This document shows, one piece after another, positions 8,006-40,162 of a stretch of 64,000 bases of DNA. A model generated the notes under the pieces. The model searched no databases. It saw only the letters and a list, made by a program, of their open reading frames with translations, and was not told where the DNA came from. Position numbers and translations under genes: made by a program. The stretch comes from an uncultured Bacteroidota bacterium (GTDB lineage Bacteria > Bacteroidota > Bacteroidia > Chitinophagales > Chitinophagaceae): assembly GCA_903904855.1 (NCBI GenBank), contig CAIVEH010000216.1, positions 28,751 to 92,750 of the forward strand, in the 5' to 3' direction. How positions within the stretch are numbered: position 1 is the stretch's first letter; each line of letters starts with the position of its first letter.

Positions 8006-9217
8006 TTATTTTTTATCCATCCTGCCTGCTATGAAATCATCCAACTGCTTCCCTCTGAGGTTTTTCGCAATGATGTTGCCTGTTGGGTCAAGAATATATA
8101 TTACCGGGAGGTCGGTCACTTTGTACGCCAGCGCTGCCGGGGATTGTATTCCCTTAAGGTCGCATACTTCACCGGGCCAGTTCAGTTCGTCTTTACGGAG
8201 TGCTCCCAGCCATTTTTCCCGGTCGGTATCGAGGGAAATACTCAGGATGTAAAAGTTGCGGGAGCCATATTTATTATAAAGCGGTTTAATCACCTGCTGG
8301 TTTTCCATGCGGCAGGGGTGGCACCAGGAGCCCCAGAAGTCAATAATGACATATTTACCCCTGAGGTCGGTGGTGCGTATCATTTTGCCCGATGAATCGG
8401 GCAGGGCCACATCAGGGGCATTTGAGCCGATGGGCAGTGTATAGAACCTATCGTAGATATCCTCCATCAACTGCCCTGCATATTTAGATTTTGGTATTTC
8501 GCGCTGGTATCGGCTGTTCATCTTCAGGCAGGAAACTGAATCGTCGGAGGAATTGGTAAGGAAGGTAAACAGGGAAACATAAGGATTGCGGATGGTATCC
8601 ATTACCGGCAGCATTTCATCAGCATGTTTTTTTATATGCCCGTGTATTTTTGCGCCAATATTTTTGAAGGAATCAGGTGGTGTTCCAGGTGTTTCTTCGA
8701 GTATCTTACGTCGGGCAATCAGTGCCGCAATGGCTTCATCTTCAGGCCAGCCCATCTCCACTACTTTGCGCAGGGCCAGGTTAGCCTGGTCCATTTTTAT
8801 AGGTTTGAAGGCATAATTGAAATGTGCCAGTTCGGTGGTAAATGATAACTGTGAGCCGGGAGATAGCAGCAGGAATGCATAGTTATCATCAATGCCTGTA
8901 AAGTTCACCATAGAGCCGCCTATGTAATCTTTGTACACCACCTCCAAACGGTAGAAGGTATTGGACTCTATACCCTTTATGGATCGGAATTCAAAGGTAC
9001 CGTCCTTTCTTATCAGTGCACTATCAACAACAAGGCTTGGGCTGCATCTGAAAAAATCGTTGATGGACAGCATCCGGCTAATGTAGACCTTGTGCTCCCA
9101 TTCGGTATCGGAAGCTTTGGGAATGATTCTGCCTTTGATAGAGCAAGGCGTGGCAGCAAACGCTACAATGTTTTGCGCCAGCAAGGTGCAGCATATAATA
9201 AAACGGAGGAGGCCCAT
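8006..9217 (-). CDS. TlpA-family thioredoxin-like protein (thiol-disulfide oxidoreductase, DUF4369-like N-terminus)
   Basis: GSWCHPCRMEN active site, 'GKYVIIDFWGSWCHPC', start placed at MGLLRFIICCTLLAQ. Confidence 0.88.
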   Translation of the reverse strand: MGLLRFIICCTLLAQNIVAFAATPCSIKGRIIPKASDTEWEHKVYISRMLSINDFFRCSPSLVVDSALIRKDGTFEFRSIKGIESNTFYRLEVVYKDYIGGSMVNFTGIDDNYAFLLLSPGSQLSFTTELAHFNYAFKPIKMDQANLALRKVVEMGWPEDEAIAALIARRKILEETPGTPPDSFKNIGAKIHGHIKKHADEMLPVMDTIRNPYVSLFTFLTNSSDDSVSCLKMNSRYQREIPKSKYAGQLMEDIYDRFYTLPIGSNAPDVALPDSSGKMIRTTDLRGKYVIIDFWGSWCHPCRMENQQVIKPLYNKYGSRNFYILSISLDTDREKWLGALRKDELNWPGEVCDLKGIQSPAALAYKVTDLPVIYILDPTGNIIAKNLRGKQLDDFIAGRMDKK

Positions 9218-9384
9218 ATGCAGCAAGATAGTAAAAGTATATTCCACCCGGGAAAAACTAATACAATAATTCTTACCACAAAGGACAATGGTTATCACAA
9301 AGGGCACAAAATCAGAAAAACATAACAATCAGGGACACAAAGTTCATTTTACGCAAAGTCGGCTTTTATCCCTTATTTTGTTCA

Positions 9385-10062
9385 TTACTTTTTCTTTCTG
9401 AAAAAGTCCTGTAGCTCCCTGCTCATTTGTTCGCCGCGCCTTTTAAGGTCCTGCATTTCCACTTCCACATTGCGGGAGATATCGTGAAAAGTAACCGGGT
9501 TGCCGCTGTTCATATTATACAGTTCATCCCGCGATCTGGCTGCTGGTATCACCATCCATGCAATAATATACGCCAGGAAGCCTATGCCTGCCGAAAGGAA
9601 TAATACCACCATTACCAGCCTGATGATAACCGGGTCTACATCAAAATAGTGAGCCAAACCACTGCACACACCACCTATTACTTTATCGTAAGGGTCGCGC
9701 AGCAGCCGGTCGCTTCTGTAGGGGTTGGTGCGGCCCTGATTTTTCTGGTAACCTGAATTGCCGCTATACTGCTGGCTGCCCTGCGAACTCCCTGATGCCG
9801 GGCCATCGTGCAGGTCGCTGGCAGTGCCCAGGGTGTCAATTACTTTCTGTACATCATTTTTGTCTATGGCTGGTGATCCTCCCTGTAGCCGTATGCTGAA
9901 TAGTTCGGCAATCCGGTTTTCGATATCTTCTATTATCTCCCGGCCATCTTCACCTTTGAACTGGCGCTCCAGTGTATTGATATATTCTTTGAGAATAGTG
10001 TAAGCGTCTTCTTCTATCGGCAAAACGCGGCCGGCTATGTTTATCTGTAGGATACGTTGCAT
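9385..10062 (-). CDS. PspC domain-containing protein
   Basis: LLRDPYDKVIGGVCSGLAHYFDVDPVIIRLVMVVLFLSAGIGFLAYIIAWMVIP. Confidence 0.9.
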   Translation of the reverse strand: MQRILQINIAGRVLPIEEDAYTILKEYINTLERQFKGEDGREIIEDIENRIAELFSIRLQGGSPAIDKNDVQKVIDTLGTASDLHDGPASGSSQGSQQYSGNSGYQKNQGRTNPYRSDRLLRDPYDKVIGGVCSGLAHYFDVDPVIIRLVMVVLFLSAGIGFLAYIIAWMVIPAARSRDELYNMNSGNPVTFHDISRNVEVEMQDLKRRGEQMSRELQDFFRKKK

Positions 10063-10073
10063 ATATTTTGGTT

Positions 10074-10406
10074 TTATAAAGGAACAGTTAAATCGTTTAC
10101 AGCCTTACTTAGTTCATCCCAGGTGGTGCGCAGTTGCTCATAAAAATGTACGCCCTCGGGTGTCAGTGTAAAGTACTTTCTGGGAGGCCCGGATAAGGAT
10201 TCCTCCCAGCGGTAACTTAGGAAGCCTGCATTCTTGAGCCTTGTGAGCAGCGGATAGAGTGTGCCTTCCAGAACAACCAGTTTTGCAGCCTTGAGTTGTT
10301 CCAGAATATCGCTTGGGTAAGCCTCTTTCTGCCGTTGTATAATACCCAGGATACACAGCTCCAGCAAGCCTTTGCGCATTTGTGATTCTGTATTATCTAT
10401 TGCCAT
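10074..10406 (-). CDS. PadR family transcriptional regulator
   Basis: KGLLELCILGIIQRQKEAYPSDILEQLKAAKLVVLEGTLYPLLTRLKNAGFLSYRWEES. Confidence 0.92.
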   Translation of the reverse strand: MAIDNTESQMRKGLLELCILGIIQRQKEAYPSDILEQLKAAKLVVLEGTLYPLLTRLKNAGFLSYRWEESLSGPPRKYFTLTPEGVHFYEQLRTTWDELSKAVNDLTVPL

Positions 10407-10628
10407 ATCGCTTCATTTCGACACAAAGGTAGGTAAAAAAAGGTATTATGCAATGCCTAGTACCTTGTTAAAGGATTTGTAAACATATTTATGATATAAA
10501 TCCAACATTCTGACTATAGTTGAATCTGCTCTGTTTTTTATAAAAAAATCTTCGCTTGGTTTTACAATTTCCAGCCGATCATTCAAAAAAATTTATTGCG
10601 CGTGAAAATGTTTTGAGTAAATTTAGGT

Positions 10629-12407
10629 ATGATTCAGCGCCTTTTTGATATTGTTGAACAGAGAAGTAACAATGCACCCGATGCCGTAATGCTTGCTGCC
10701 AAGGAGCAGGGCAACTGGCGCACCTACAGCAGCAGGGAGGTTTGGGAGACTGCCCGAAAACTGGCTGGAGGATTGCTGACATTAGGTATTACCAATGAGA
10801 TACTGGAGCCGGAACCTCAGGAGAAAATTGCAATCATTTCTCCCAACAGACCAGAATGGATGATTACTGACATCGCTGTGCAACTTACCGGTGCAGTATT
10901 AACGCCCATTTACCCCACTATTAGTCCTCAGGAGATAGCCTATGTGCTTGATGAGGCAGGTGTTCAGATATTATTTGTGGCCAATGCCGATATTTATGAG
11001 CGGTTTAAAGATTCGTTCAATAACGTAATCTCGCTCAAAAAAATATACTCTTTCGATGAAGTTCGTGGAGTGCCGAACTGGAGGGAGTTGCTGAATAAAA
11101 ATCTGCAACCGGACGAAACGGTAACTGCCCGTATAAAACCAGAAACACTAGCTACTATTATTTACACCTCAGGCACCACCGGCGACCCCAAGGGAGTAAT
11201 GCTTACCCACAATAACCTTGTGAGCAATATAATGGACTCAATGCCGGCCTTCACTTTTGCACAGGAAAACAGCAGGGCTTTAAGCTTTTTGCCCCTCAAT
11301 CATATTTTTGAGCGCACTGTAACCTATATCTATATTCATTCGGGTGTATCTGTTTATTATGCCGAAAGCATGGATACAATCGGTCCTAATCTTAAAGAGG
11401 TACAACCTCTGGTATTTACAACAGTACCAAGGCTGCTGGAGAAAGTATACGAACGGATTATGAGTACCGCCCTTGAACTTAAAGGTATAAAGCGGGCGCT
11501 TTTTTTCTGGGCACTGGAGCTGGGCAAAAAATATGATAACGCAATAAAAGGGAGTATCTGGTACCGGCTGCAATTGTGGCTAGCTAACCAGATCATATTT
11601 AATAAATGGAGAGCTGCGTTGGGTGGGCAGGTTAAGGCTATAGTAGTAGGTTCAGCCGCCTGCCAGGAGCGGCTGGTAAGGATATTTTCGGCTGCCAATG
11701 TGGTGATAATGGAAGGTTATGGCCTTACTGAAACATCTCCGGTAGTGAGTGTAAACAGGTATGAAAGTGAGAACAGGAGGGCTGGAACTATTGGGCCATT
11801 AATAGATAATGTAGAAGTGAAAATAGCAGAGGATGGAGAGATATTGACCAGGGGGCCAAATGTTACTATAGGTTATTACAAGCATCCTGATCTGACAAAA
11901 GCCGCTTTGGAAGATGGCTGGCTGCATACCGGAGATATTGGCACCTGGGTGGAAGGGCGGTTCCTTAAGATTACAGACCGGAAAAAGGAGATTTTCAAAA
12001 CTTCGGGTGGCAAGTATGTGGCTCCGCAGGTGATTGAAAACAAGATGAAGGAGAGTCCATACATTGAGCAGATGATGGTAATAGGCAATGGCAGAAAATT
12101 TGTAAGCGCGTTGGTTATACCCAGTTTTATTCAAGTCAGAAAATTCCTTGCAGATCACCATCATAAAGTAGTGATACCAGCTAAAAATGCTGACTTAATA
12201 AAGATTCCGGAGGTGCTTGATTTAATGCAGAAGCAACTTGATAAATACAACCCCCATTTCAGCCATCCCGAGCAGGTAAAGAAAATTAAGCTGCTCTCCG
12301 AAGAGTGGACCATTGACAGCGGAGAATTAACACCATCGCTTAAAGTGAAACGAAAAATAATAGAGCATAAATATGCCAGCCAGATAGAGGAAATTTATGC
12401 AGATTAA
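10629..12407 (+). CDS. AMP-dependent synthetase / long-chain fatty-acid-CoA ligase
   Basis: IIYTSGTTGDPKGVMLTH, GYGLTETSPV, TGD, DRKKEIFKTSGGKYVAPQ motifs. Confidence 0.93.
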   Translation: MIQRLFDIVEQRSNNAPDAVMLAAKEQGNWRTYSSREVWETARKLAGGLLTLGITNEILEPEPQEKIAIISPNRPEWMITDIAVQLTGAVLTPIYPTISPQEIAYVLDEAGVQILFVANADIYERFKDSFNNVISLKKIYSFDEVRGVPNWRELLNKNLQPDETVTARIKPETLATIIYTSGTTGDPKGVMLTHNNLVSNIMDSMPAFTFAQENSRALSFLPLNHIFERTVTYIYIHSGVSVYYAESMDTIGPNLKEVQPLVFTTVPRLLEKVYERIMSTALELKGIKRALFFWALELGKKYDNAIKGSIWYRLQLWLANQIIFNKWRAALGGQVKAIVVGSAACQERLVRIFSAANVVIMEGYGLTETSPVVSVNRYESENRRAGTIGPLIDNVEVKIAEDGEILTRGPNVTIGYYKHPDLTKAALEDGWLHTGDIGTWVEGRFLKITDRKKEIFKTSGGKYVAPQVIENKMKESPYIEQMMVIGNGRKFVSALVIPSFIQVRKFLADHHHKVVIPAKNADLIKIPEVLDLMQKQLDKYNPHFSHPEQVKKIKLLSEEWTIDSGELTPSLKVKRKIIEHKYASQIEEIYAD

Positions 12408-22976: not shown

Positions 22977-23051
22977 GGTCCTATAGCTCAGTTGGTTAGC
23001 AGCACCTGACTCATAATCAGGGGGTCCCAGGTTCAAGTCCTGGTGGGACCA
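22977..23051 (+). tRNA. tRNA with CAU anticodon (Met or lysidine-type Ile2)
   Basis: GGTCCTA acceptor / TGGGACC-A, anticodon arm CCTGA-CTCATAA-TCAGG, T arm CCAGG-TTCAAGT-CCTGG. Confidence 0.93.
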
Positions 23052-23068
23052 CTCTAAAATTGGAAATA

Positions 23069-27396: not shown

Positions 27397-28407
27397 TCAG
27401 TTCAGGTACCAGCAGTCAGATCTGTTCTCCAATGCACCTTTCAGCTCTACAGCCAGGTTGAATGCATTTACTGACCTGTCCAGGAAGGTATCTATGTAGC
27501 TGCTCTTGTTGGACCCGGTGAAGAGGTTGTACAAGCTCCACAGGTTGATACTGCCTTTCTGGCTCCTACAGAAGTACTTGTCCCTGTAATAGTCATTGCA
27601 GATAGCATTAATCTGGCTTTCCCCGAACATCAATTCAGGTACCAACTGCTTTATGTTATCCGGCAGATACCTGTACATCCTGCATCTGCCAACCAATGAA
27701 GCAAATTGTGTCTCTGTTAGTTCGTAATTGCTGAAAGATTGCAGTTGTTCTCCCAGCTTCACAGCATTGAAGTCCTTTAACAGGCTCATCATGGACATCC
27801 TCAGCATGTCCAGATTCTTTACCTTCAAGTTGGCTAGGTAGCCATCAGTGGTTACAGACAGGTTGGTACATACCTTGTTTTCAAAACCAATAAAGAATTT
27901 GAAATGCTGGTCTGTACCTGATCTGTTATACAGATTGTCCAGGTTGTAGGCTTTTACACCCCCTACAGTCAGGTTTAGTTTATTGCCTGCCACATCTGTA
28001 GTGATGGATGGTATCTCCACCACAAAAGCCATACGTTCATAATACAGGGTCTTTTCATGCTCCAGAAGTTCTATAGCCGGTTTATGTTTGGCCTCTGGTA
28101 TTCTGCCTTTGATAGGATGACTCAGCCTGATATTGGGCTTCAGGATGGTTTCTCCGTGGAATATCTCAGCCACAGTGTTTAAAGCACTGCTGATAAACTC
28201 TGCATGGCTTATCACCGGTTCATTGTCCTTTATGAATACCGGTATGATATGGTTCCTGTTTATGTCCTGGAGGTTCCCAACTATTGTGTTGGCTTCAATG
28301 AAAGGACTTGGAGCAGGTTCGATTTCTATTTCATCGATTACCTCCTCAATTACCTCCCCTACAGATGCTGGGATATGGTTCTTATTGTTGATTTGCAAGA
28401 GTTCCAT
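27397..28407 (-). CDS. DUF3871 family protein (Bacteroidetes mobile-element protein)
   Basis: 336 aa; 'ETILKPNIRLSHPIKGRIPEAKHKPAIELLEHEKTLYYERMAFVVEIPSI...LTVGGVKAYNLDNLY'. Confidence 0.75.
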   Translation of the reverse strand: MELLQINNKNHIPASVGEVIEEVIDEIEIEPAPSPFIEANTIVGNLQDINRNHIIPVFIKDNEPVISHAEFISSALNTVAEIFHGETILKPNIRLSHPIKGRIPEAKHKPAIELLEHEKTLYYERMAFVVEIPSITTDVAGNKLNLTVGGVKAYNLDNLYNRSGTDQHFKFFIGFENKVCTNLSVTTDGYLANLKVKNLDMLRMSMMSLLKDFNAVKLGEQLQSFSNYELTETQFASLVGRCRMYRYLPDNIKQLVPELMFGESQINAICNDYYRDKYFCRSQKGSINLWSLYNLFTGSNKSSYIDTFLDRSVNAFNLAVELKGALENRSDCWYLN

Positions 28408-29260
28408 TTTGTATTGCTTTTTGCTGGTTAAAAATGATTGTTTCTATTTCCTGCCGTCTTTTGGTGAATTCTGTCAGCAGTTCTGTCTGATAAACCGGGA
28501 ATGAATTATACAGGCTCAACAGCTCATCATGTGTATGGCAGGCTGCTATACTCTTGATTACTTCTTCCTTTGTTACATTGACTACCTGCTCTGTTCCTGT
28601 ATTGCACCATTCTATGATCATCTTACCTGTTTCAGGTGTAGGGATAAACTCCGGCTTTCCAAAGAATAGCTGTGTTCTGTCCTTTGTAGCTTTGGCATGT
28701 AGGGCAATATCCAATTCGAGGACCAGGGTAAATTCATAATCCATTCCCTCCCTCTGGATACCCTTCATGCCTACCTTTTCAGGTACCTGTTTACCGTTCT
28801 TTTCAGACAGTACATATTCCTGCTTTGACCTCATGGTGCCGATGATATGTACATCTGCCTGGAGCAATAGCTGAACAAATGCATTATGCCGGGGTGTCAG
28901 CTTTGACCAGTTGGTAAAACTGTTGCCAACCATTCCTGAATGAGTGTCGAGTATAAATTCCCACTCATGAGTTAAGGAATCAATAATCACCACCTCAATA
29001 GCTGCATTAATGCAAACTGTGATTGCCTGCATATATCTCTCCGGAGAGAATGGGGCAATGAATGGCAGGACAAAGTAATTGCCCAGATCAGCATAGAGAT
29101 CAGCAGACCTGTTCTCTGAATCTATGACAGCAATCTTATCCCACCTGCCACAGAGACCAAAGGCAATGAATAAGGCATCTTTGGTTTTGCCTGACCCTGA
29201 TGGGCCTTGTAGCGCCATCTTAATTTTCGTTTTCTTCTTGTTAGCTACCTGTAGCTGCAT
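28382..29260 (-). CDS. AAA_24/Sak4-like RecA-fold ATPase
   Basis: Walker A GPSGSGKTKDAL, VIDSENRSADLYADLG, Walker B EVVIIDSLTHEW; start set at MQLQVANKKK. Confidence 0.82.
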   Translation of the reverse strand: MQLQVANKKKTKIKMALQGPSGSGKTKDALFIAFGLCGRWDKIAVIDSENRSADLYADLGNYFVLPFIAPFSPERYMQAITVCINAAIEVVIIDSLTHEWEFILDTHSGMVGNSFTNWSKLTPRHNAFVQLLLQADVHIIGTMRSKQEYVLSEKNGKQVPEKVGMKGIQREGMDYEFTLVLELDIALHAKATKDRTQLFFGKPEFIPTPETGKMIIEWCNTGTEQVVNVTKEEVIKSIAACHTHDELLSLYNSFPVYQTELLTEFTKRRQEIETIIFNQQKAIQNGTLANQQ

Positions 29261-29356
29261 AATAATTGATTTTTGAGATGAACGAATTGGTATAAAACTT
29301 AAAAAGGGAAGCAGGAATCTCTCCCACCTCCCCTTCCATTCCATAGCTACCAGGGC

Positions 29357-29779
29357 CTATTTTACGAGTTCTTTTCTTCTTTTGTTTGCAGCCTCCTTTA
29401 TACCATCCTCCGGTTTAGTGGTGACAGCTGCTGCTTGTGGTTGATCAATTTCCACGGTACCATGCCCTACCACTTCATTACTGCCTGCAGGTTGATAGGC
29501 ATAGGTATAACCAAGGGTAACCACTTCACCGGTTCTCTTAATGGTATACTCATAGGGCTCAGATGCAACCCTCACAACATCTCCTGCCAACTGGGAACCA
29601 ACCATCATTTTGGCAATGGATTCATCAAATGTGGAAGGGATGCTGCACTTCCTTACAGTGGCATAAAATTTCCCGGTATTCTGGGATTGGACAATTTCTA
29701 AACTGCCTGTCAACTCTAAGGCAATGAAATCTTCTCCGCTCTTGTTTTGGCGGACATTGTAACCTGTAACGGATACCAT
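29357..29779 (-). CDS. Conserved element protein, possible OB-fold/SSB-like (paralog of 37092-37424)
   Basis: MVSVTGYNVRQNKSGEDFIALELTGSLEIVQSQNTGKFYATVRKCSIPSTFDESIAKMMVGSQLAGDVVRV; upstream of the ATPase on the same strand. Confidence 0.65.
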   Translation of the reverse strand: MVSVTGYNVRQNKSGEDFIALELTGSLEIVQSQNTGKFYATVRKCSIPSTFDESIAKMMVGSQLAGDVVRVASEPYEYTIKRTGEVVTLGYTYAYQPAGSNEVVGHGTVEIDQPQAAAVTTKPEDGIKEAANKRRKELVK

Positions 29780-30495
29780 AAAATATATATTTTGGAATGA
29801 ATAAAAGCCTCCTATTCTTATGCCCGGAGGTGTAAGGGCAAGGTTGTGTACATCGTGTAACAAAGGTCAAACAAGGACACATGGAGGTGCCTTGTTCTGC
29901 TGGAAAGAACATGTCATAAAAACAGAATTGAAATGAATAAAAACCCCTTATCCTAAACCAGGGGGGTACTGGCCGCAATTAAGAAAAGCAGCAGGATTGG
30001 TAGGGTACCCTTATACACACTCGAATACACACATTTTTTGTGCTGGTAGAAATGAAACGTTATTTTGAGGTACAGGGGGGCTGCTATAAATCTGAAACTA
30101 TTTATGGTCAAATGAGTTTGGAAAATTTTTGGAAAAAAATTATTGAATCCTGATGAATCTATTTATTTAGCCTCTTCAATACGGTAGGGTTTTCTAAATA
30201 TTTTGCATTTTTGTTAATCAATAATTAGGAATAAAATAGATGATAATTCTTTTGAACAATAGTCGAAACTAGTGTTCAATAAGCAATAAAAATTAATCTA
30301 AAAATAACATAAACACCTTCTTTTTTAAAGATTTTAAGAAAAAAATGGTATTTTAGTTAAATTTTAAAAATAATATATGATAAAATATATTGTTCAGCAT
30401 ATTCAATATCAATTAAATGCAAGCATATAAAATATATAATGATGTATATTAAAATTTATTTGTTAATTGTCTTGTTTTTTAGTAAGATGAATAAT

Positions 30496-30578: not shown

Positions 30579-31118
30579 ATGATGACTGATACAGAGTTTG
30601 AAATCACCGTTAGAGATGCTGCTATTCATCAATCACCATCTATCCTACCCAATTCCAATAAAAAAAGAGCCGTTATTGTTCTTTCAAATATTTTCAAATC
30701 ATCCAAAGAAGTAGTGAAAATATTTGCTAATAGATTTGAAAGCCCCATTTGCCAAGATGCTACTTATGTACTTGAGCTAAAAGAGGCTATTAAAACTAGA
30801 AATGTAAAAGTACAAATATTATTTACTGAATCCCCTGATGATAGTTCACCTGCATGTATAATGCTTAAGGAATTATTGCCTAATTATTCGCATTGCATTG
30901 AAATGAAAGTCATTTCTAAAGCGGCTGAAGAAGAAATTAATAGTAAGAAAATTAATAGCGGCAAACCATTTAGATTTGCAGTTGCCGATCATAGAATGTT
31001 CAGATACGAATTGAATACTACAGATTATCAGGCTTATTTTTGTTTCAAAGATTTTGAAAGAGCAAAAAAATTAGAGAACATTTTTGACGTAGCATTTCAA
31101 AAATCTAGTTCTGTTTAA
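30579..31118 (+). CDS. Uncharacterised protein, PLD-like fold without an HKD motif (tentative)
   Basis: 179 aa; 'KKRAVIVLSNIFKSSKEVVKIFANRF...LKEAIKTRNVKVQILFTE...FRFAVADHRMFRYELNTTDYQAYFCFKDFERAKKLENIFDVAF'. Confidence 0.6.
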   Translation: MMTDTEFEITVRDAAIHQSPSILPNSNKKRAVIVLSNIFKSSKEVVKIFANRFESPICQDATYVLELKEAIKTRNVKVQILFTESPDDSSPACIMLKELLPNYSHCIEMKVISKAAEEEINSKKINSGKPFRFAVADHRMFRYELNTTDYQAYFCFKDFERAKKLENIFDVAFQKSSSV

Positions 31119-31251
31119 ATTGCATTATTAATTCATCGTATTATATTCCAAGTAGTGATTGCTGTAAAAAAAACAGTAATCCGGTGTTTAATGTAACATC
31201 CTATCTATTAAGAAAATATGATATAAATTTTTTGATCTCAAACAAACTGCC

Positions 31252-32100
31252 ATGCCTGATTTTGAACATTTTTCTCATTTTTTTGGTGCAATGTTCCATG
31301 TAAACGTTGCAGCAATTGGATTTATTACATTTTTTTACAAGCATATTCATAGAAACATCCAGAATAAAATCAATGCACTCCATGACAAAATAAAGCATGT
31401 TGAATTGTCATTAAATGAAGATTTTAAGCAAGCCATCGGTTCAGTAGTTAGTGGCCCTGTAACGTTTAAATCCATATTGTCTATAATACATATATCTGTA
31501 AGGGCATTTTTTCATCTTATCTTTAATAATTTTATTACCAAACCAATCTTTTATATTTCAAAAAAAAGATTAGGTAAAATTAACAATGAGAGAGATTACA
31601 TAAAACGATATTTCCCTTTATTTCTAGTTGTCGGAATTTATTGTCTTTTGATGCTACTACTATCTGAAACCGTATCAGAATTTGAATTTCAGAAACAAAA
31701 TGGAATATACTTTAATAATTGGAAACATATATCTGAAATATTAATTATAGGATCATGGATTTTTGTAGGTACTTATACGGGTTTAAATATTTTAATGAAC
31801 AGTATAATTTCAAAAAGCCATAAAATTCTTCTATTCAATTTCGCAATATTAATTATTGCATTGATTTTACCAATTGTTGTGTTTTCAAAAGCCAATTATC
31901 ATATTTTTCATAATATAACTCAAAGCAAGAAAAGGTATTCATTTCTTATATTTTCAGTTATTTACATCACTATTTTCCCAACTTTCAATTTAGCACGTAA
32001 GTATTTGGCTTATAAATTTGCAGTATTGTTAGCCGAAGTCAATTATGCAATTACGCAAAAAAATAACAGTGATGGCTTTGATAACAGCCTAGGGGATTAG
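31252..32100 (+). CDS. Multi-pass membrane protein, uncharacterised
   Basis: 282 aa with about five hydrophobic segments, same strand as and downstream of the 30579 gene. Confidence 0.65.
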   Translation: MPDFEHFSHFFGAMFHVNVAAIGFITFFYKHIHRNIQNKINALHDKIKHVELSLNEDFKQAIGSVVSGPVTFKSILSIIHISVRAFFHLIFNNFITKPIFYISKKRLGKINNERDYIKRYFPLFLVVGIYCLLMLLLSETVSEFEFQKQNGIYFNNWKHISEILIIGSWIFVGTYTGLNILMNSIISKSHKILLFNFAILIIALILPIVVFSKANYHIFHNITQSKKRYSFLIFSVIYITIFPTFNLARKYLAYKFAVLLAEVNYAITQKNNSDGFDNSLGD

Positions 32101-32700: not shown

Positions 32701-32753
32701 TTTATAAACATATCAGGTGTATAAACATCGTAGGTTTATAAACATAGCAGGTG
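32701..32753. repeat. Three tandem 17-bp iteron-like repeats
   Basis: TTTATAAACATATCAGG (32701), TGTATAAACATCGTAGG (32718), TTTATAAACATAGCAGG (32735): exact 17-bp period. Confidence 0.8.
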
Positions 32754-32859: not shown

Positions 32860-33501
32860 ATGGAACGAAAGAAATTCAACAAAGCCGATCTTCATGCTCC
32901 CAGGTGCAGAGAGATGATAAAAGATGTTCTGTCTTACCCGGATAAAGATTTTTATGGATACTTTTCCAGGATGAAAGAACAATATCCTCAGATGAAGCAG
33001 TACAGTAACCGGCAGATAGCAAAGTGGATAGAAGAATACAATAAACAGATGGCGCATGAGGTTGCCACAAGCAGGAATGGTGTTATGCTACCTGAAGGTC
33101 TTGGCTATGTAGTGGTAGGGAGCTGTAAACTGACAGAAGTAACTGCCAAACTCAACATCGATTATGCTGCTTCCAGCAAATACGGAGTTATTATAAACCA
33201 TAGTAATTACCATTGTGAAGGGTATGTGGCCACAATACAGTACTACAATGATATACCCAGGCAGCGGTTTAAGAACCATGTACTTTGGGACTTTAAAGCC
33301 TGTAGAGCACTCAGCAGGGCAGTATCTGCGGAGTTTATGGCAGGTAAATATAATCACTACATACCCTTATCTAAATGGAGCCGTGTAGCTAACAGGTTCC
33401 ATAAATTCAAATTCAGGAAACCTTCCTGGAGGGAAAAGAAGAGGGAAAGGGAAAGGAAAGAAGCATGGGTTAATTATGATGAATTCGCAGGCTTTGATTA
33501 G
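32860..33501 (+). CDS. Hypothetical element protein with basic C-terminal tail
   Basis: 213 aa ORF downstream of the iteron-like array; C-term KFKFRKPSWREKKRERERKEAWVNYDEF. Confidence 0.6.
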   Translation: MERKKFNKADLHAPRCREMIKDVLSYPDKDFYGYFSRMKEQYPQMKQYSNRQIAKWIEEYNKQMAHEVATSRNGVMLPEGLGYVVVGSCKLTEVTAKLNIDYAASSKYGVIINHSNYHCEGYVATIQYYNDIPRQRFKNHVLWDFKACRALSRAVSAEFMAGKYNHYIPLSKWSRVANRFHKFKFRKPSWREKKRERERKEAWVNYDEFAGFD

Positions 33502-33750: not shown

Positions 33751-35352
33751 ATGGAAATTGAACTACTTATCCCAAACAATATAAATGTCGATGCCCTGAT
33801 ACCTGAAAATTTAAAGGGTGAGGCTAGGGAAAAATTCCATGACAGAATTGTATATTTTCTGCACATCATAGTAGCCAGGCTGAATACCAAAAAAGTGTTT
33901 GAGGAATATTTAAATAATGGGTATGTCCGGCTAATGAAGAAATACCTCAGGCAAATAATGGGCAACCAAACAAAAGATATTATAGACATTTTAAGCATCA
34001 AGAAAATCATAACAGTTGATCTGGACTATGAAATTGGAGAATACTCAATGGGATATATCCTTACCGATAAATACCTAAAAGCAAAGCCCAAAAAAGTTCA
34101 ACTCATCAGTTATGAAGTATTCAAAGTTTATAAAAGGAAACTTGAGGAACAAAGGAAACTTCAAAAAAAGCTTTCATCAAAAATCCCTCAGGTCATAGTG
34201 CAATTAAGCAAGCCATGGAGTATTGATCTGCCCAAGGCAGTGAAATGGACAATAATGTTTGAAAGCATGTTCTACAACCAGATTAATGAATCAAAGATCA
34301 TACCTGCTGAAAACAAACTGGAAGCCATAAACAAATACAAGCAATACTACCAATTCATCAGGAGACAGTTAGTTAGGATTGAACAAGGAAATGTATCAGA
34401 CTATACAATTGATGAAAAGGCAGGCAGGTTACATACAATCTTCACAGGATTGCCAAGACCACTGAAGAATTTCCTAAGATATCAGGTTGATCAATCTTTA
34501 GCATGTATAGACATTAAAAACAGCCAACCCTTTTTGCTAGGATATATGATGACACTAAGATTCTGGAAGACAACACAGGAATCAAGAGCATCAGATAGGG
34601 CAAGAGAAGAATTGACATTAATGAAGGTAGGTAAGGAAGTATATAACAAGATTATGGATAAGTATGATAAGAAGAGAGCCAGGGCTGCTATCATAATGAT
34701 GTTAGAAACTCCGGAAACCATTGACAGGAGCGAGTTTCCGGGAATACACTTACAATGTTTATGTTCGGAGGGTAAATTTTATGAGTATATTATGGATAAA
34801 TTTAATGGCATATACCTTGCTGGAGGAATTGACCGGTTTGGTACCAGAAATGAAACCAAAAGAGAAGTTATGAGAATTATGTACTTCGATACCAGAAAGG
34901 AAAAAGCACCATTTTATGCACCATTCAAGCAGTTTGCACAGTTGTTTCCCATTGAATCTAAAATTATGAGACTCATTAAAAGCTGTGGCTTTAGAGAGTT
35001 TCCTATATTATTGCAAAGAATTGAAAGCAAACTGATGCTGGAAAAAGTAGGTGAAAAGATACCCAAGCATATCCCATTTCTGACTGTGCACGATTCTATT
35101 ATCATACCTGAAATTGAAGTCCCAGCTACAATAAAACTGATTGAATCAGAATTTAAATTCTATCTGGACCTGACACCCAAAATCTCAGAACCTGATGTAC
35201 TCAATACGGATAAAGGATTTGAGGCTTTAGATAGCTATGTAAAGGAGAAACTGAATAATCTTGAAATTAAGTTTCTTAATAAGCAAAAACTGTCTACTAA
35301 TGATATAATGGGTGGAGATGAAATTGAAGGGTATAGTTTGCATTATAGCTAA
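33751..35352 (+). CDS. Putative minimal family-A-like DNA polymerase (palm/fingers only)
   Basis: GRLHTIFTGLPRPLKNFLRY...LACIDIKNSQPFLLG (motif A-like), RFGTRNETKREVMRIMYFD (motif B-like), FLTVHDSIIIPE (motif C HD); no exonuclease domain visible. Confidence 0.6.
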   Translation: MEIELLIPNNINVDALIPENLKGEAREKFHDRIVYFLHIIVARLNTKKVFEEYLNNGYVRLMKKYLRQIMGNQTKDIIDILSIKKIITVDLDYEIGEYSMGYILTDKYLKAKPKKVQLISYEVFKVYKRKLEEQRKLQKKLSSKIPQVIVQLSKPWSIDLPKAVKWTIMFESMFYNQINESKIIPAENKLEAINKYKQYYQFIRRQLVRIEQGNVSDYTIDEKAGRLHTIFTGLPRPLKNFLRYQVDQSLACIDIKNSQPFLLGYMMTLRFWKTTQESRASDRAREELTLMKVGKEVYNKIMDKYDKKRARAAIIMMLETPETIDRSEFPGIHLQCLCSEGKFYEYIMDKFNGIYLAGGIDRFGTRNETKREVMRIMYFDTRKEKAPFYAPFKQFAQLFPIESKIMRLIKSCGFREFPILLQRIESKLMLEKVGEKIPKHIPFLTVHDSIIIPEIEVPATIKLIESEFKFYLDLTPKISEPDVLNTDKGFEALDSYVKEKLNNLEIKFLNKQKLSTNDIMGGDEIEGYSLHYS

Positions 35353-35360
35353 ACAATTAA

Positions 35361-36869
35361 TTAATCCTCCCAATATTGTTTTCCGTTTTTGTCAATGTAT
35401 CCGTATTTTATTTTTGATTTAGTAAATCGGCCTTTAAAAAACATAATGAAGTAATCCAGAAAATTGTAATTCATATGCACGCTTGCTTTCCCGTCTTTGA
35501 AATACCAGGTTTCATCGTAAATGTATGGGATGATTTGTGCGCCAGTCTTATCAATAAATCCCCATTTTTTATTTAATCTTACTGCAGCTAACCCTTCTCT
35601 AAAATATTTTACTTGATCATATACAAAGGCTATAGCCTGATTTCCATTTACATCAATGAACCCCCATTTATTATTAATCTTTACAGCAGCTAACCCTTCG
35701 CCAAGTCCCTCAAAATCATCATACAAAAAAGGTATGACTTCATTCCCAACAGGATCAAAAAAGCCAAATTTCCCTTTATATTTAACTACAACAATGCCTT
35801 CTGGGAAAACAAAACAATAGTCACAATGTAGTGGAATAACTGTTTTCCCTTTTATGTCAATTGCACCATATTTTCCATTAATTCCAACACTTGCTATGCC
35901 CTTCTTAAAACTATCAGCACTATCATATTTATAGTCAATTTCAGCGTTTCCCCTTTCATTAATATAGCCGTATTTTCCTTTATATTGAACTAATGCTAAG
36001 CCATCTGAAAACTCAAAAGCATGGTCATAAATAAAAGGTATTCTAATCATTGGGTACTTTGTGACATCAACATATCCGTATTCTTTTGAGGTAATAATCA
36101 TGTCATATGAAGATGTAATAGCCATACAAGATGAATCTAAAATAGACATACAAGCAACTTGTAATCCATTAATGAATTCTTTCTCAATAAATGGATCATC
36201 GCCAGGATGAATTATAGAACCCATGGCATTGCCATTCCTTACGACAAATCTTATTTTACCATTTAATACAACCCTAGCTATTCCATCAACAAAATTTTCC
36301 ACATTGTCAAAAATGCAGGGAATAATTACTTTTTTAAAATCAGGAGTGGAAAATCCTTTTTTATCTGGTTTACTTTGATAACAACAGGGGACTAATATAT
36401 TATTTTGCTCAAAATTTGTTGAGTTACTATCAACTAATCTTTCTTTGATTGAAATAAATTCACTATTAAACTGATCAACCAAATCTGGAGAACCCCTTGT
36501 AATAATAATATTCTCATCATTTTGTTTTGCTCTATTGCTCCAGTTATACGAACCTGTAATTACGATATTGTCATCTATCACACAGAACTTATGGTGCATA
36601 ATGGCTCCTTCAATTGTTGGAGTAATAAAATAAACACAACCTCCAAAATCCTCTAAATCTTTATGCTGTATTCTAGTTTTCTCATTATTAATTTCGTCAT
36701 TAACTAGTAGCAATTCAATCTTAACTCCATCTTTTGCCTTTTTCAAAAGAACATTGAAAATACTTTGATCAGTCATCCATGCCACGGCTATAAGAATAGA
36801 ACTCTTAGCTGAGGAAATCTGATTTATAATTTCTTTTTGAATATCCTGAAAATATGCTTGTGTTTTCAC
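35361..36869 (-). CDS. PLD-family (HKD) nuclease fused to WG repeats
   Basis: MHHKFCVIDDNIVITGSYNWSNRA (HxKxxxxD plus GSxNWS) then several ~45-aa WG repeats (NNKWGFIDVNGNQAIAFVYDQVKYFREGLAAVRLNKKWGFID...). Confidence 0.85.
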   Translation of the reverse strand: MKTQAYFQDIQKEIINQISSAKSSILIAVAWMTDQSIFNVLLKKAKDGVKIELLLVNDEINNEKTRIQHKDLEDFGGCVYFITPTIEGAIMHHKFCVIDDNIVITGSYNWSNRAKQNDENIIITRGSPDLVDQFNSEFISIKERLVDSNSTNFEQNNILVPCCYQSKPDKKGFSTPDFKKVIIPCIFDNVENFVDGIARVVLNGKIRFVVRNGNAMGSIIHPGDDPFIEKEFINGLQVACMSILDSSCMAITSSYDMIITSKEYGYVDVTKYPMIRIPFIYDHAFEFSDGLALVQYKGKYGYINERGNAEIDYKYDSADSFKKGIASVGINGKYGAIDIKGKTVIPLHCDYCFVFPEGIVVVKYKGKFGFFDPVGNEVIPFLYDDFEGLGEGLAAVKINNKWGFIDVNGNQAIAFVYDQVKYFREGLAAVRLNKKWGFIDKTGAQIIPYIYDETWYFKDGKASVHMNYNFLDYFIMFFKGRFTKSKIKYGYIDKNGKQYWED

Positions 36870-37091: not shown

Positions 37092-37424
37092 TTAGGCTGC
37101 TACCATATTCCTTGCAGCAACAACACTTACCTCTTCAGGCGTATAGTCATACCTGTAAGCAAGCTTGATAACCTCACCTGTTTCAGGTAGAGCGTAATCA
37201 TAAGGCTCACAGATAACCCTTACAATGCTACCAGGCATCTGTTTGCCAACCATCATCCTGGCTGTTAGCTCATCAAATGTGCTGAACACAAAACATCTCC
37301 TGGCAGTTGCATAGAACCTGCCAGTATTTGAGCTCTGCACGAGTTCAATATCCCCTGATAATTCCAGCGAGATGTACTTTCCTTTCTCACCTTCTCTGAG
37401 GTGATAATTCTTAACTGTTACCAT
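37092..37424 (-). CDS. Paralog of the 29357-29779 protein (possible OB-fold/SSB-like)
   Basis: MVTVKNYHLREGEKGKYISLELSGDIELVQSSNTGRFYATARRCFVFSTFDELTARMMVGKQMPGSIVRVICEPYDYALPETGEVIKLAYRYDY, collinear with 29357. Confidence 0.65.
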   Translation of the reverse strand: MVTVKNYHLREGEKGKYISLELSGDIELVQSSNTGRFYATARRCFVFSTFDELTARMMVGKQMPGSIVRVICEPYDYALPETGEVIKLAYRYDYTPEEVSVVAARNMVAA

Positions 37425-37641
37425 TTGGTAAGTTTTAAAAGTTAACAATGAAATTTAAAGGTGCCGGAGTGATCCAGACCCTAGATGGGAGAGAGGGGAG
37501 TGTGAGATGAACTGGTACTCTATTTCACATACAGATAAAAAACCGGACAAATAAAAATACCCAGGTTGAGGGGTAACATTTTAAAAAGCATTGTATGGGG
37601 GGATTGTTCTTGTGATGCTGATAAAGGGGGTAGTTTTAAAA

Positions 37642-38851: not shown

Positions 38852-39829
38852 TCATATCCCAGGGTACCAGTTATAATCTTCCATGCCATTTGATCGAAAT
38901 TTGTTGTTAGTTTTAATAGCCATTGCCTCTGCCATTTTCATGTCCAGTTCAGTTATTAATTCGCTTTCACAGGTAAACTGTTTATTATTACTTGCTATGG
39001 TTACTTCTTTCTTCAAATCACATACCTGTTTTCTTGATAATCTTCTTGTCTTTCTCCCTTCATCTAAATCCAGTAACATTTTCTGAACTCCTCCATTAGA
39101 TTCAATGAACGCTAATTCACTCATAGAGGCAAATTGCTTTTTTGTCTTTACAATATTGAAATTTATCATTGGTTTTCTTATCTTCCATATACTAAGGTAG
39201 TCTTTGTACCAGTCCTCTTTGATAGCTTGGTAAAAGTCTGGCTCATATAGCATCGCTGCTGTTAGCTTATCCCTTTTAAAGCATTTTGCAGCCCACAGAT
39301 ACCTCTTCTCATATCTGAAGAGATGGATGCCTTTGAACTGTCTTGGAACTGGCTCTTTATGACTTTTATACTCTTTTATCTTATCATAGTAAACCAAAGT
39401 CTTACCCGATAGCTTGTAATAAAGGGTATCATCAATCATGTATCTTCTATAATGACCATTTGGCCCCAGATACCTGAAATATAGATCAGGACTGTAATTC
39501 ATTTCCAGATTCTCAGCATAATGAAACTCTTTAACCTGAGCCCTATCCATAGGTAGATGAAGCATATCACTCATCCTTACTATACTCTCATGAATACCAT
39601 TCCTATCAATCATCTGCAGGTTATTCCCCAAATACCATTTAGGAAGACTACCTGATACCTTCACTCTACCGTCAGTAACACCTACCACCAATCTACCTAA
39701 CCTTCCTGAAACTGATATGCCACCTTCATAGTTATGATGACCGACATTACTTAAATGCACAGGAATCTCACCCAATAAGTCTGTATTGGGAACTTCTGAA
39801 GCTGGTAATATGAGTTCTATTGTATCCAT
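38852..39829 (-). CDS. Filamentous-phage gene II-like / rolling-circle replication initiator (Phage_CRI-like)
   Basis: 'MIDDTLYYKLSGKTLVYYDKIKEYKSHKEPVPRQFKGIHLFRYEKRYL' resembles the gpII/X CRI-family core. Confidence 0.65.
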   Translation of the reverse strand: MDTIELILPASEVPNTDLLGEIPVHLSNVGHHNYEGGISVSGRLGRLVVGVTDGRVKVSGSLPKWYLGNNLQMIDRNGIHESIVRMSDMLHLPMDRAQVKEFHYAENLEMNYSPDLYFRYLGPNGHYRRYMIDDTLYYKLSGKTLVYYDKIKEYKSHKEPVPRQFKGIHLFRYEKRYLWAAKCFKRDKLTAAMLYEPDFYQAIKEDWYKDYLSIWKIRKPMINFNIVKTKKQFASMSELAFIESNGGVQKMLLDLDEGRKTRRLSRKQVCDLKKEVTIASNNKQFTCESELITELDMKMAEAMAIKTNNKFRSNGMEDYNWYPGI

Positions 39830-39889: not shown

Positions 39890-40162
39890 TCAAAATGCTT
39901 CATGCCTGTGTTTTTTTAATATCTTCTGAATATCTGCCTGAGAATAGTAGATTTTCCCCCCAACCTGGCTGAAGGAAATAATACCCTCGTCTCTCCAGGT
40001 TTGGGCAGTTCTCTTGCTTATGCCCATGAGCTTCATGAACTCATCATTGCCTACGAAGTCCTTTTCCTGTGTTCTGGGTTTGGCTAGGGCATCTATAGCC
40101 TGGTTTAATTTCTCCAGGAGCTGTGTGATTTCCTGTCCTGAGATAATAACTGCACTTTCCAT
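39890..40162 (-). CDS. Excisionase-type helix-turn-helix (MerR-like HTH_17) protein
   Basis: DFVGNDEFMKLMGISKRTAQTWRDEGIISFSQVGGKIYYSQADIQKILKKHRHEAF. Confidence 0.9.
   Translation of the reverse strand: MESAVIISGQEITQLLEKLNQAIDALAKPRTQEKDFVGNDEFMKLMGISKRTAQTWRDEGIISFSQVGGKIYYSQADIQKILKKHRHEAF

Follow-up and report, generated by a model that had tools for sequence, protein, structure and literature searches.

The window, a 64,000-nucleotide stretch of DNA, carries on its forward strand an intact open reading frame of 533 codons with an ATG start, which we refer to as pol, and its product as P0001. The polymerase gene and the features that surround it are as follows.

27397-28407, reverse strand: DUF3871 protein, following the ATPase gene (PF12987, E 1.5e-111)
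28382-29344, reverse strand: RecA-like ATPase, AAA_24 (PF13479, E 6.8e-16; phrog_1366, 2.8e-74)
29357-29863, reverse strand: SSB-like protein, copy 1, 49% identical to copy 2 (homologous core 29360-29779)
32703-32753, no strand: three imperfect 17-bp iteron-like tandem units (TRF, 79% matches)
32860-33501, forward strand: 213-aa protein with no annotated function, directly upstream of pol (phrog_12177, E 4.4e-6)
33751-35352, forward strand: pol, encoding a 533-aa TV-Pol-like family-A polymerase (open reading frame, 45-member family, AlphaFold2 model, PDB folds)
35361-36869, reverse strand: protein with a PLD-type nuclease domain and seven WG repeats, tail-to-tail with pol (PF13091, 8.6e-25; PF14903, 2.3e-59)
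37092-37448, reverse strand: SSB-like protein, copy 2 (AlphaFold2 pLDDT 86; five long strands and one helix)
38852-39829, reverse strand: HUH-type replication initiator, G2P/Phage_CRI, like G2P of filamentous phages (PF05144, E 2.6e-7)
39890-40162, reverse strand: helix-turn-helix, excisionase-like protein (PF12728, E 1.7e-9)

The polymerase gene is real, and the 533-aa reading frame given in the preliminary description is present at 33751-35352 as described. Its start codon is supported by an N-terminal "M...P" pattern common to the homologs (P8 in 39 of 45). The SSB- and RecA-like genes that were said to accompany it also stand, as two SSB-like paralogs and an AAA_24/Sak4-like ATPase. Foldseek matches of the second SSB-like copy were mostly SSB and PriB, albeit weak (E 0.08-1), and the ATPase is only weakly Sak4-like (phrog_124 Sak4, 4.9e-5). 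The two SSB genes lie 1.7-4 kb from pol on the opposite strand, as do the ATPase and DUF3871 genes at 2-5 kb, an arrangement that gives no support to an operon partnership for the window copy. A Pfam scan of the neighbors found no helicase. The iterons of the preliminary description were partly borne out: three 17-bp units are present at 32703-32753, but they are imperfect and lie upstream of a different gene, that of the 213-aa protein.

Other genes in the region look like passengers. The PLD/WG gene is likely cargo and may have a defense or effector role; its nuclease domain is NucT/DrmC-like, with a weak DrmC-like match in PADLOC (1.7e-9). At 30579-32100 on the forward strand, where GC content is 27%, a 179-aa protein with weak PLD-like similarity (PF13091, E 0.021) is paired with a 282-aa protein that has hydrophobic stretches and no family; the pair looks like a separate cargo unit. 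That a single island holds two SSB-like paralogs may be a sign of two elements having merged.

Active-site motifs and predicted fold

The three motifs quoted in the preliminary description are all found in P0001. Residues 225-244 read GRLHTIFTGLPRPLKNFLRY and are followed by ACIDIKNSQPFLLG, which contains the motif A aspartate (D254). Motif B lies in RNETKREVMRIMYF (residues 366-379; R366 and K370), while LTVHDSIIIPE (residues 444-454) contains the motif C aspartate, D448. With conservation counted over 45 full-length homologs, the parts of the protein map to the forward strand as follows.

33751-34215, forward strand: N-terminal domain, aa 1-155, helices and then beta strands (DSSP of the AlphaFold2 model)
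34228-34383, forward strand: two long thumb-like helices, aa 160-180 and 186-211 (AlphaFold2/DSSP)
34402-34437, forward strand: beta-hairpin (GRLHT) with R226 (R in 45 of 45; strands 218-220 and 227-229)
34498-34530, forward strand: motif A, LACIDIKNSQP, with metal-binding D254 (34510-34512; D in 44 of 45 and Glu in the remaining one) and Q259 at the steric-gate position (Q in 42 of 45)
34846-34884, forward strand: motif B, RxxxKxxxMxxxY (R366, K370, M374, Y378), fingers helix (R in 37 of 45, K in 45 of 45)
35011-35028, forward strand: LQRIES motif (Q422 in 41 of 45, E425 in 45 of 45)
35080-35109, forward strand: motif C, LTVHDSIIIP, with metal-binding D448 (35092-35094; D in 45 of 45) and H447 (43 of 45)

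Four residues (R226, K370, E425, and D448) are therefore invariant, and the quoted motifs did not arise by chance. From the order of the motifs, we take R226 to be the equivalent of R668 in Pol I. Judged by eye, the N-terminal domain of the model appears winged-helix-like.

The AlphaFold2 model of P0001, built from a 22-sequence alignment, has a mean pLDDT of 83.2 and a pTM of 0.81. All of the best 50 PDB matches listed by Foldseek are either A-family DNA polymerases, including Bst, Taq, Klenow, apicoplast PolA, Pol theta, and Pol nu, or T7-like and mitochondrial RNA polymerases, including POLRMT and T7 RNAP (best E 7.6e-5). TM-scores were low (0.2-0.4 for the whole model) and rmsd was large, so the similarity is one of the core and not of the whole chain. 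Against viral models, the top two matches reached E values of 8.6e-20 and 3.7e-14, the latter with a protein named "Putative DNA polymerase I". At the level of sequence, P0001 had zero matches in Pfam, NCBIfam, and PADLOC, one chance-level match in PHROG, and only chance-level matches to PDB sequences, against which the family profile likewise returned 0 matches. Since neither Pfam nor NCBIfam finds an exonuclease domain, the earlier reading of a stripped-down polymerase is supported. The preliminary description had staked its family-A-like assignment on a right-hand palm and on motif residues conserved in homologs. The best folds are indeed polymerase palms and the catalytic positions are essentially fixed, so that residue conservation, the model, and the Foldseek comparison all favor the assignment.

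Distribution and conservation of the family

Among 299 genomes belonging to the same taxonomic family, homologs of pol were found in 25 by single-sequence search and in 37 by profile; across the phylum, 15 of 398 genomes have one. The family is divergent: identity to P0001 is 18-27% pairwise and at most 34% locally, though somewhat higher in short segments. Three more divergent copies are present in the genome from which the window comes; these lie on contigs C106, C109, and C167 and form one clade with a few others, apart from the window copy. Scans of genome contigs for related loci returned none in one case and one already known locus in the other.

With equivalences set by motif spacing rather than superposition, the residue four after the motif B lysine, corresponding to F762 of Pol I, is F in 19, M in 12, and L in 10 of the 45 homologs. 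Eight after the lysine, at the position of Y766 in Pol I and Y639 in T7 RNAP, 29 homologs have F and 11 have Y.

Relationship to known polymerases

By profile comparison, the closest relatives of the family are the TV-Pols. Mobile elements and viruses carry these minimal polymerases, and the 2008 survey of them included Bacteroidetes (Iyer, Abhiman, and Aravind 2008, PMC2579912). We compared the 45-member family by hhalign with a profile of four sequences, namely MAP_030 of Microcystis phage Ma-LMM01, two proteins from Polaromonas plasmids, and one from a Calothrix plasmid. MAP_030 was taken as a TV-Pol on the basis of motifs and length; Ma-LMM01 is known to carry one (PMC2579912). The comparison gave a probability of 87-95% (E 3.7e-6/5.4e-8) and an alignment that spans the GRLH hairpin through HDS. 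By the same method, probabilities were 12-15% for T7-like RNA polymerases, 4-6% for Pol I, and 0.3% for an integrase control.

According to the original survey, TV-Pols have an antiparallel two-helix thumb N-terminal to the palm, a hairpin with an absolutely conserved arginine, an RRM-like palm with two conserved aspartates, fingers with RxxxK and a conserved aspartate, the motifs "LLQ.[IV]E" and "HD[GS]", and an N-terminal globular domain; they are free of nucleases and belong to mobile elements that also encode integrases or resolvases, in some cases with D5-like helicases nearby (PMC2579912). Two thumb-like helices are present in the P0001 model, the hairpin arginine, both palm aspartates, and RxxxK are found across the family, and P0001 has no nuclease fusion. 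Both groups have GR in the hairpin, a D..[NK][SC][QH] pattern in motif A, and LLQ.[IV]E, with LQRIES aligning in hhalign to the LLQ.[IV]E of MAP_030 and the Polaromonas proteins. The mobile context applies to the relatives (integrase at 15 of 22 loci, D5/VapE helicase at two, resolvase at one), but not to the window copy.

Other comparisons set the two groups apart. Identity to MAP_030 is about 18% over 164 aligned columns, and in our tree the TV-Pols form a separate clade (97/94) on long branches. Motif A reads D..NSQP in our family, compared with D..[NK]CH in the TV-Pols that we compared. The fingers aspartate has no fixed counterpart, as the commonest aspartate between motifs A and B, near aa 328, is present in 19 of 45 homologs (D or E in 31 of 45). 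Furthermore, a D5-type helicase is near only two of 22 pol loci. Between the N-terminal domains, the similarity was not significant (hhalign E 0.065), so homology there is at most tentative. Because of the fingers aspartate, and with the N-terminal homology tentative, we call the family TV-Pol-like as opposed to a strict member. The polymerase is a new, divergent Bacteroidota branch of an already known kind and, since that kind was described in 2008, its novelty is less than the preliminary description implied. In Polaromonas plasmid pW9NP1 (L115, 37-2488), a TV-Pol-like gene precedes repA by 11 bp.

Pol I resembles P0001 in its hairpin arginine, in the order of motifs A, B, and C, and in the best PDB folds. 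However, Pol I has glutamate at the steric gate of motif A, HDE in motif C, and a 3'-5' exonuclease, whereas P0001 has glutamine, HDS, and no 3'-5' exonuclease. No PF00476 (DNA_pol_A) match was obtained for P0001 or listed among 28 family members. An ordinary Pol I is present on another contig of the same genome.

Some features raise the alternative that P0001 is a single-subunit RNA polymerase of the T7/N4 type, transcribing genes of the element and not copying its DNA. T7-like and mitochondrial RNA polymerases have KRxxMxxxY and HDS patterns in common with P0001, whose motif B (RxxxKRxxMxxxY) and motif C (HDS) read as they do in T7 RNAP; POLRMT and T7 RNAP are among the structural matches, and the RNA polymerase profile scored slightly above that of Pol I. 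Yet T7 RNAP has glycine at the steric-gate position, where nearly all of our homologs have glutamine, and a bulky gate would favor dNTPs; the equivalent of Y639 is most often phenylalanine. A length of about 500 aa leaves scant room for a promoter-recognition domain of the T7 type, and the promoter-binding N-terminal domain of these enzymes was not recognized in our family. T7 RNAP as closest kin is ruled out by the much stronger match to TV-Pols, which are known from DNA-replication contexts, and the neighboring SSB, helicase, Rep, and integrase genes also indicate replication. We consider it very unlikely that P0001 makes RNA; more probably, it synthesizes DNA.

A functional parallel is offered by CcPol-MP, where the MP protein turns a family-A polymerase into a primase and de novo priming has been demonstrated (Bebel 2020, PMC7581432; Rice 2023, PMC10061031). 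In the CcPol-MP and PolA-SSB systems of SCC elements (SCCmec), the element encodes a family-A polymerase together with an ATPase or helicase and a small protein of OB fold, and the gene order Pol-SSB-ATPase of these systems recurs in one of our loci (L073). CcPol is a near relative of ordinary Pol I, and its setting in Bacillota includes a helicase and large serine recombinases, whereas our family is far from Pol I and is found in Bacteroidota with tyrosine integrases, its usual ATPase neighbor being RecA-like (Sak4-like). The same-operon helicase of CcPol-MP was absent from the window element in the Pfam scan and lies directly upstream of pol only in L079. The likeness of MP to the SSB-like proteins near pol is one of description and not of demonstrated homology.

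Genomic context of the relatives

We compared 22 pol loci, and at 15 of them a tyrosine integrase (PF13102/PF17293/PF00589) is encoded in the same 20-kb stretch. At half of the 20 genomic loci outside the window (10 of 20), the integrase is within 2 kb of pol, against an expectation of about 0.8% per locus, given that these genomes, about 88 Mb in all, contain 106 integrases of this type. Two loci (L071 and L072) have the order integrase-HTH-pol, and the intervening genes are homologs of the helix-turn-helix gene of the window. In addition, a serine resolvase is encoded at L067. The TV-Pol-like family is widespread in mobile elements of Bacteroidota.

The ATPase, DUF3871, and SSB-like genes of the window recur in varying combinations. 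Relatives of the ATPase adjoin pol in L073, L075, L077, and L078. In L073, pol, SSB, and ATPase genes stand in a row, with pol at 8798-10444 and the SSB-like gene 182 bp after it, at 10626-11090; L075 has pol-ATPase; in L077, ATPase and DUF3871 genes flank pol; and the order in L078 is SSB-ATPase-DUF3871-pol. The ATPase-DUF3871 order of the window is found near pol in L077 and L078 as well. In L079, a VapE/DUF5906 helicase gene lies 115 bp upstream of pol, which is followed by SSB-ATPase, and a D5_N/DUF5906 helicase is encoded near pol in L064, from the genome of the window itself. Another candidate D5 helicase (L065, 5802-7430) was rejected as a DNA methylase. The 213-aa protein has a homolog at L068, and at L080, a class-level relative, a reverse transcriptase gene (PF00078, 6719-8656) lies about 1 kb from pol.

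Across the 299 genomes, a set chosen for neither gene, SSB and pol co-occur in nine genomes compared with 3.5 expected (Fisher p 0.003; p 0.008 without the genome of the window), and at six loci they are within about 12 kb of each other. The SSB was not found in 28 of 37 pol genomes, nor pol in 19 of 28 SSB genomes. With the majority of carriers of either gene lacking the other, the SSB appears to be an optional partner.

Homologs of the HUH Rep lie about 3 kb or less from a tyrosine integrase, on the same strand, at five of eight Rep loci in other genomes (L165-L169), and pol is absent from all eight that we examined. Although the loci are few, they suggest that pol occupies the slot of the HUH Rep in sister elements. 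The interchange of nonhomologous replication modules is the argument that Iyer et al. made for the function of TV-Pols (PMC2579912). Separately, the HUH Rep of the window sits in a chromosomal element, and the proximity of Rep homologs to tyrosine integrases in family genomes indicates that a set of RCR-type integrative elements exists.

Phages and a plasmid also carry the gene. Several uncultured phages, 595-735 kb in size, encode homologs (LR756501 and LR756511 are examples), among them L032 (4239-5402) and L116 (5974-7167) from phages of 595 kb and 735 kb, whose records are without annotation. The polymerase of the 595-kb phage nests within the bacterial family (96/83). Another homolog is carried by a 35-kb plasmid of Hymenobacter. 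Since this plasmid also encodes a replication initiation protein and ParA, pol is ruled out as its sole replication gene. A "nucleotide-binding protein" near the plasmid pol was considered as ParA and rejected, as it is a TIR/Pycsar effector.

That effector is one of several neighbors that bring up another possibility, namely that pol is anti-phage defense cargo and not the replicase of the element. Defense cargo sits beside pol at L065, L071, L072, L073, and L077 in the form of type IIG and type I restriction enzymes, an Mza-like protein, and DNA methylases, and a defense role has been raised for PolA-SSB pairs (Rice 2023, PMC10061031). Nevertheless, the polymerase is constant beside the integrase while the defense genes vary between loci, it replaces Rep in sister elements, and it is present in the very large phages, where a replication role is simpler; moreover, P0001 itself has no PADLOC match. 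On balance, we regard defense cargo as an unlikely explanation.

The window element departs from its relatives in one respect. No credible integrase or integrase remnant was detected in the window by tblastn, and no flanking att repeat or repeat of the tRNA-Met 3' end was found around the element. The tRNA-Met gene at 22977-23052 has counterparts, by place or strand context, in relatives G688, G272, and G689 that precede different DNA, which suggests an insertion-prone site; insertion of the element into this tRNA was dropped as an explanation owing to the missing 3'-end repeat. The self-replicating integrated element of the preliminary description is supported in part, through the integrase-bearing relatives and the HUH Rep of the window, but not as regards integration of the window copy; its autonomous replication is putative, and the element may be composite. 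It is conceivable that the element is a decaying remnant that has lost its integrase and is losing pol, all the more as the HUH Rep could be enough. However, reading frames are likewise open for SSB, ATPase, DUF3871, Rep, and HTH, and an intact reading frame that keeps all catalytic residues at a maximal identity of about 27% to its kin implies that pol evolved under constraint for the greater part of its history. Decay is, in our judgment, highly improbable.

Proposed function

We think it probable that P0001 is an active-site-intact, exonuclease-less, TV-Pol-like family-A polymerase that copies the DNA of its element and perhaps primes that synthesis. Synthesis would begin at an origin or follow excision of the element. 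Two-metal catalysis would fall to D254 and D448 of the palm, R366 and K370 of the fingers would hold the nucleotide to be added, and the hairpin residue R226 would touch the template. Where present, the putative OB-fold SSB and RecA-like ATPase of the element could maintain a single-stranded template. The polymerase may prime its own synthesis as CcPol-MP does, aided by SSB in those elements that have one; self-priming is suggested by the replacement of other replication modules, both the HUH Rep and those of D5/VapE-type helicase contexts. Even so, the main replicase may be something other than pol, given the HUH Rep in the window and the initiator and ParA on the Hymenobacter plasmid.

A broader hypothesis, which we offer tentatively and hold to be possible more than probable, is that of a second, independently evolved primase-polymerase. 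It would consist of a TV-Pol-like subunit, an element SSB, and a RecA-like ATPase, and would initiate DNA chains without DnaG or AEP primases. Such a system would be interchangeable with the HUH Rep in defense-carrying elements of Bacteroidota and would have been exchanged with phages of 600-700 kb.

To the authors of the 2020 eLife paper, CcPol-MP was the sole biochemically characterized TV-Pol (Bebel 2020, PMC7581432). Dozens of relatives that are active-site intact and free of exonucleases, several of them beside SSB-like partners, make the repeated evolution of primases from family-A polymerases testable in a second phylum. A limited literature search found no paper on this Bacteroidota branch. 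New here are the breadth of this divergent and unannotated branch, in which the catalytic residues are fixed, its place in the integrase/Rep slot, its occurrence in giant phages, and a Pol-SSB-ATPase arrangement that is seen occasionally. The family also provides an annotation handle for defense-carrying integrative elements of Bacteroidota and for an unannotated gene of very large phages. Along these lines, PHROG 4756, for which no function is annotated, was matched not by P0001 itself but by 11 of 28 family members (best E 1.5e-8), and on that account probably holds phage members of the family.
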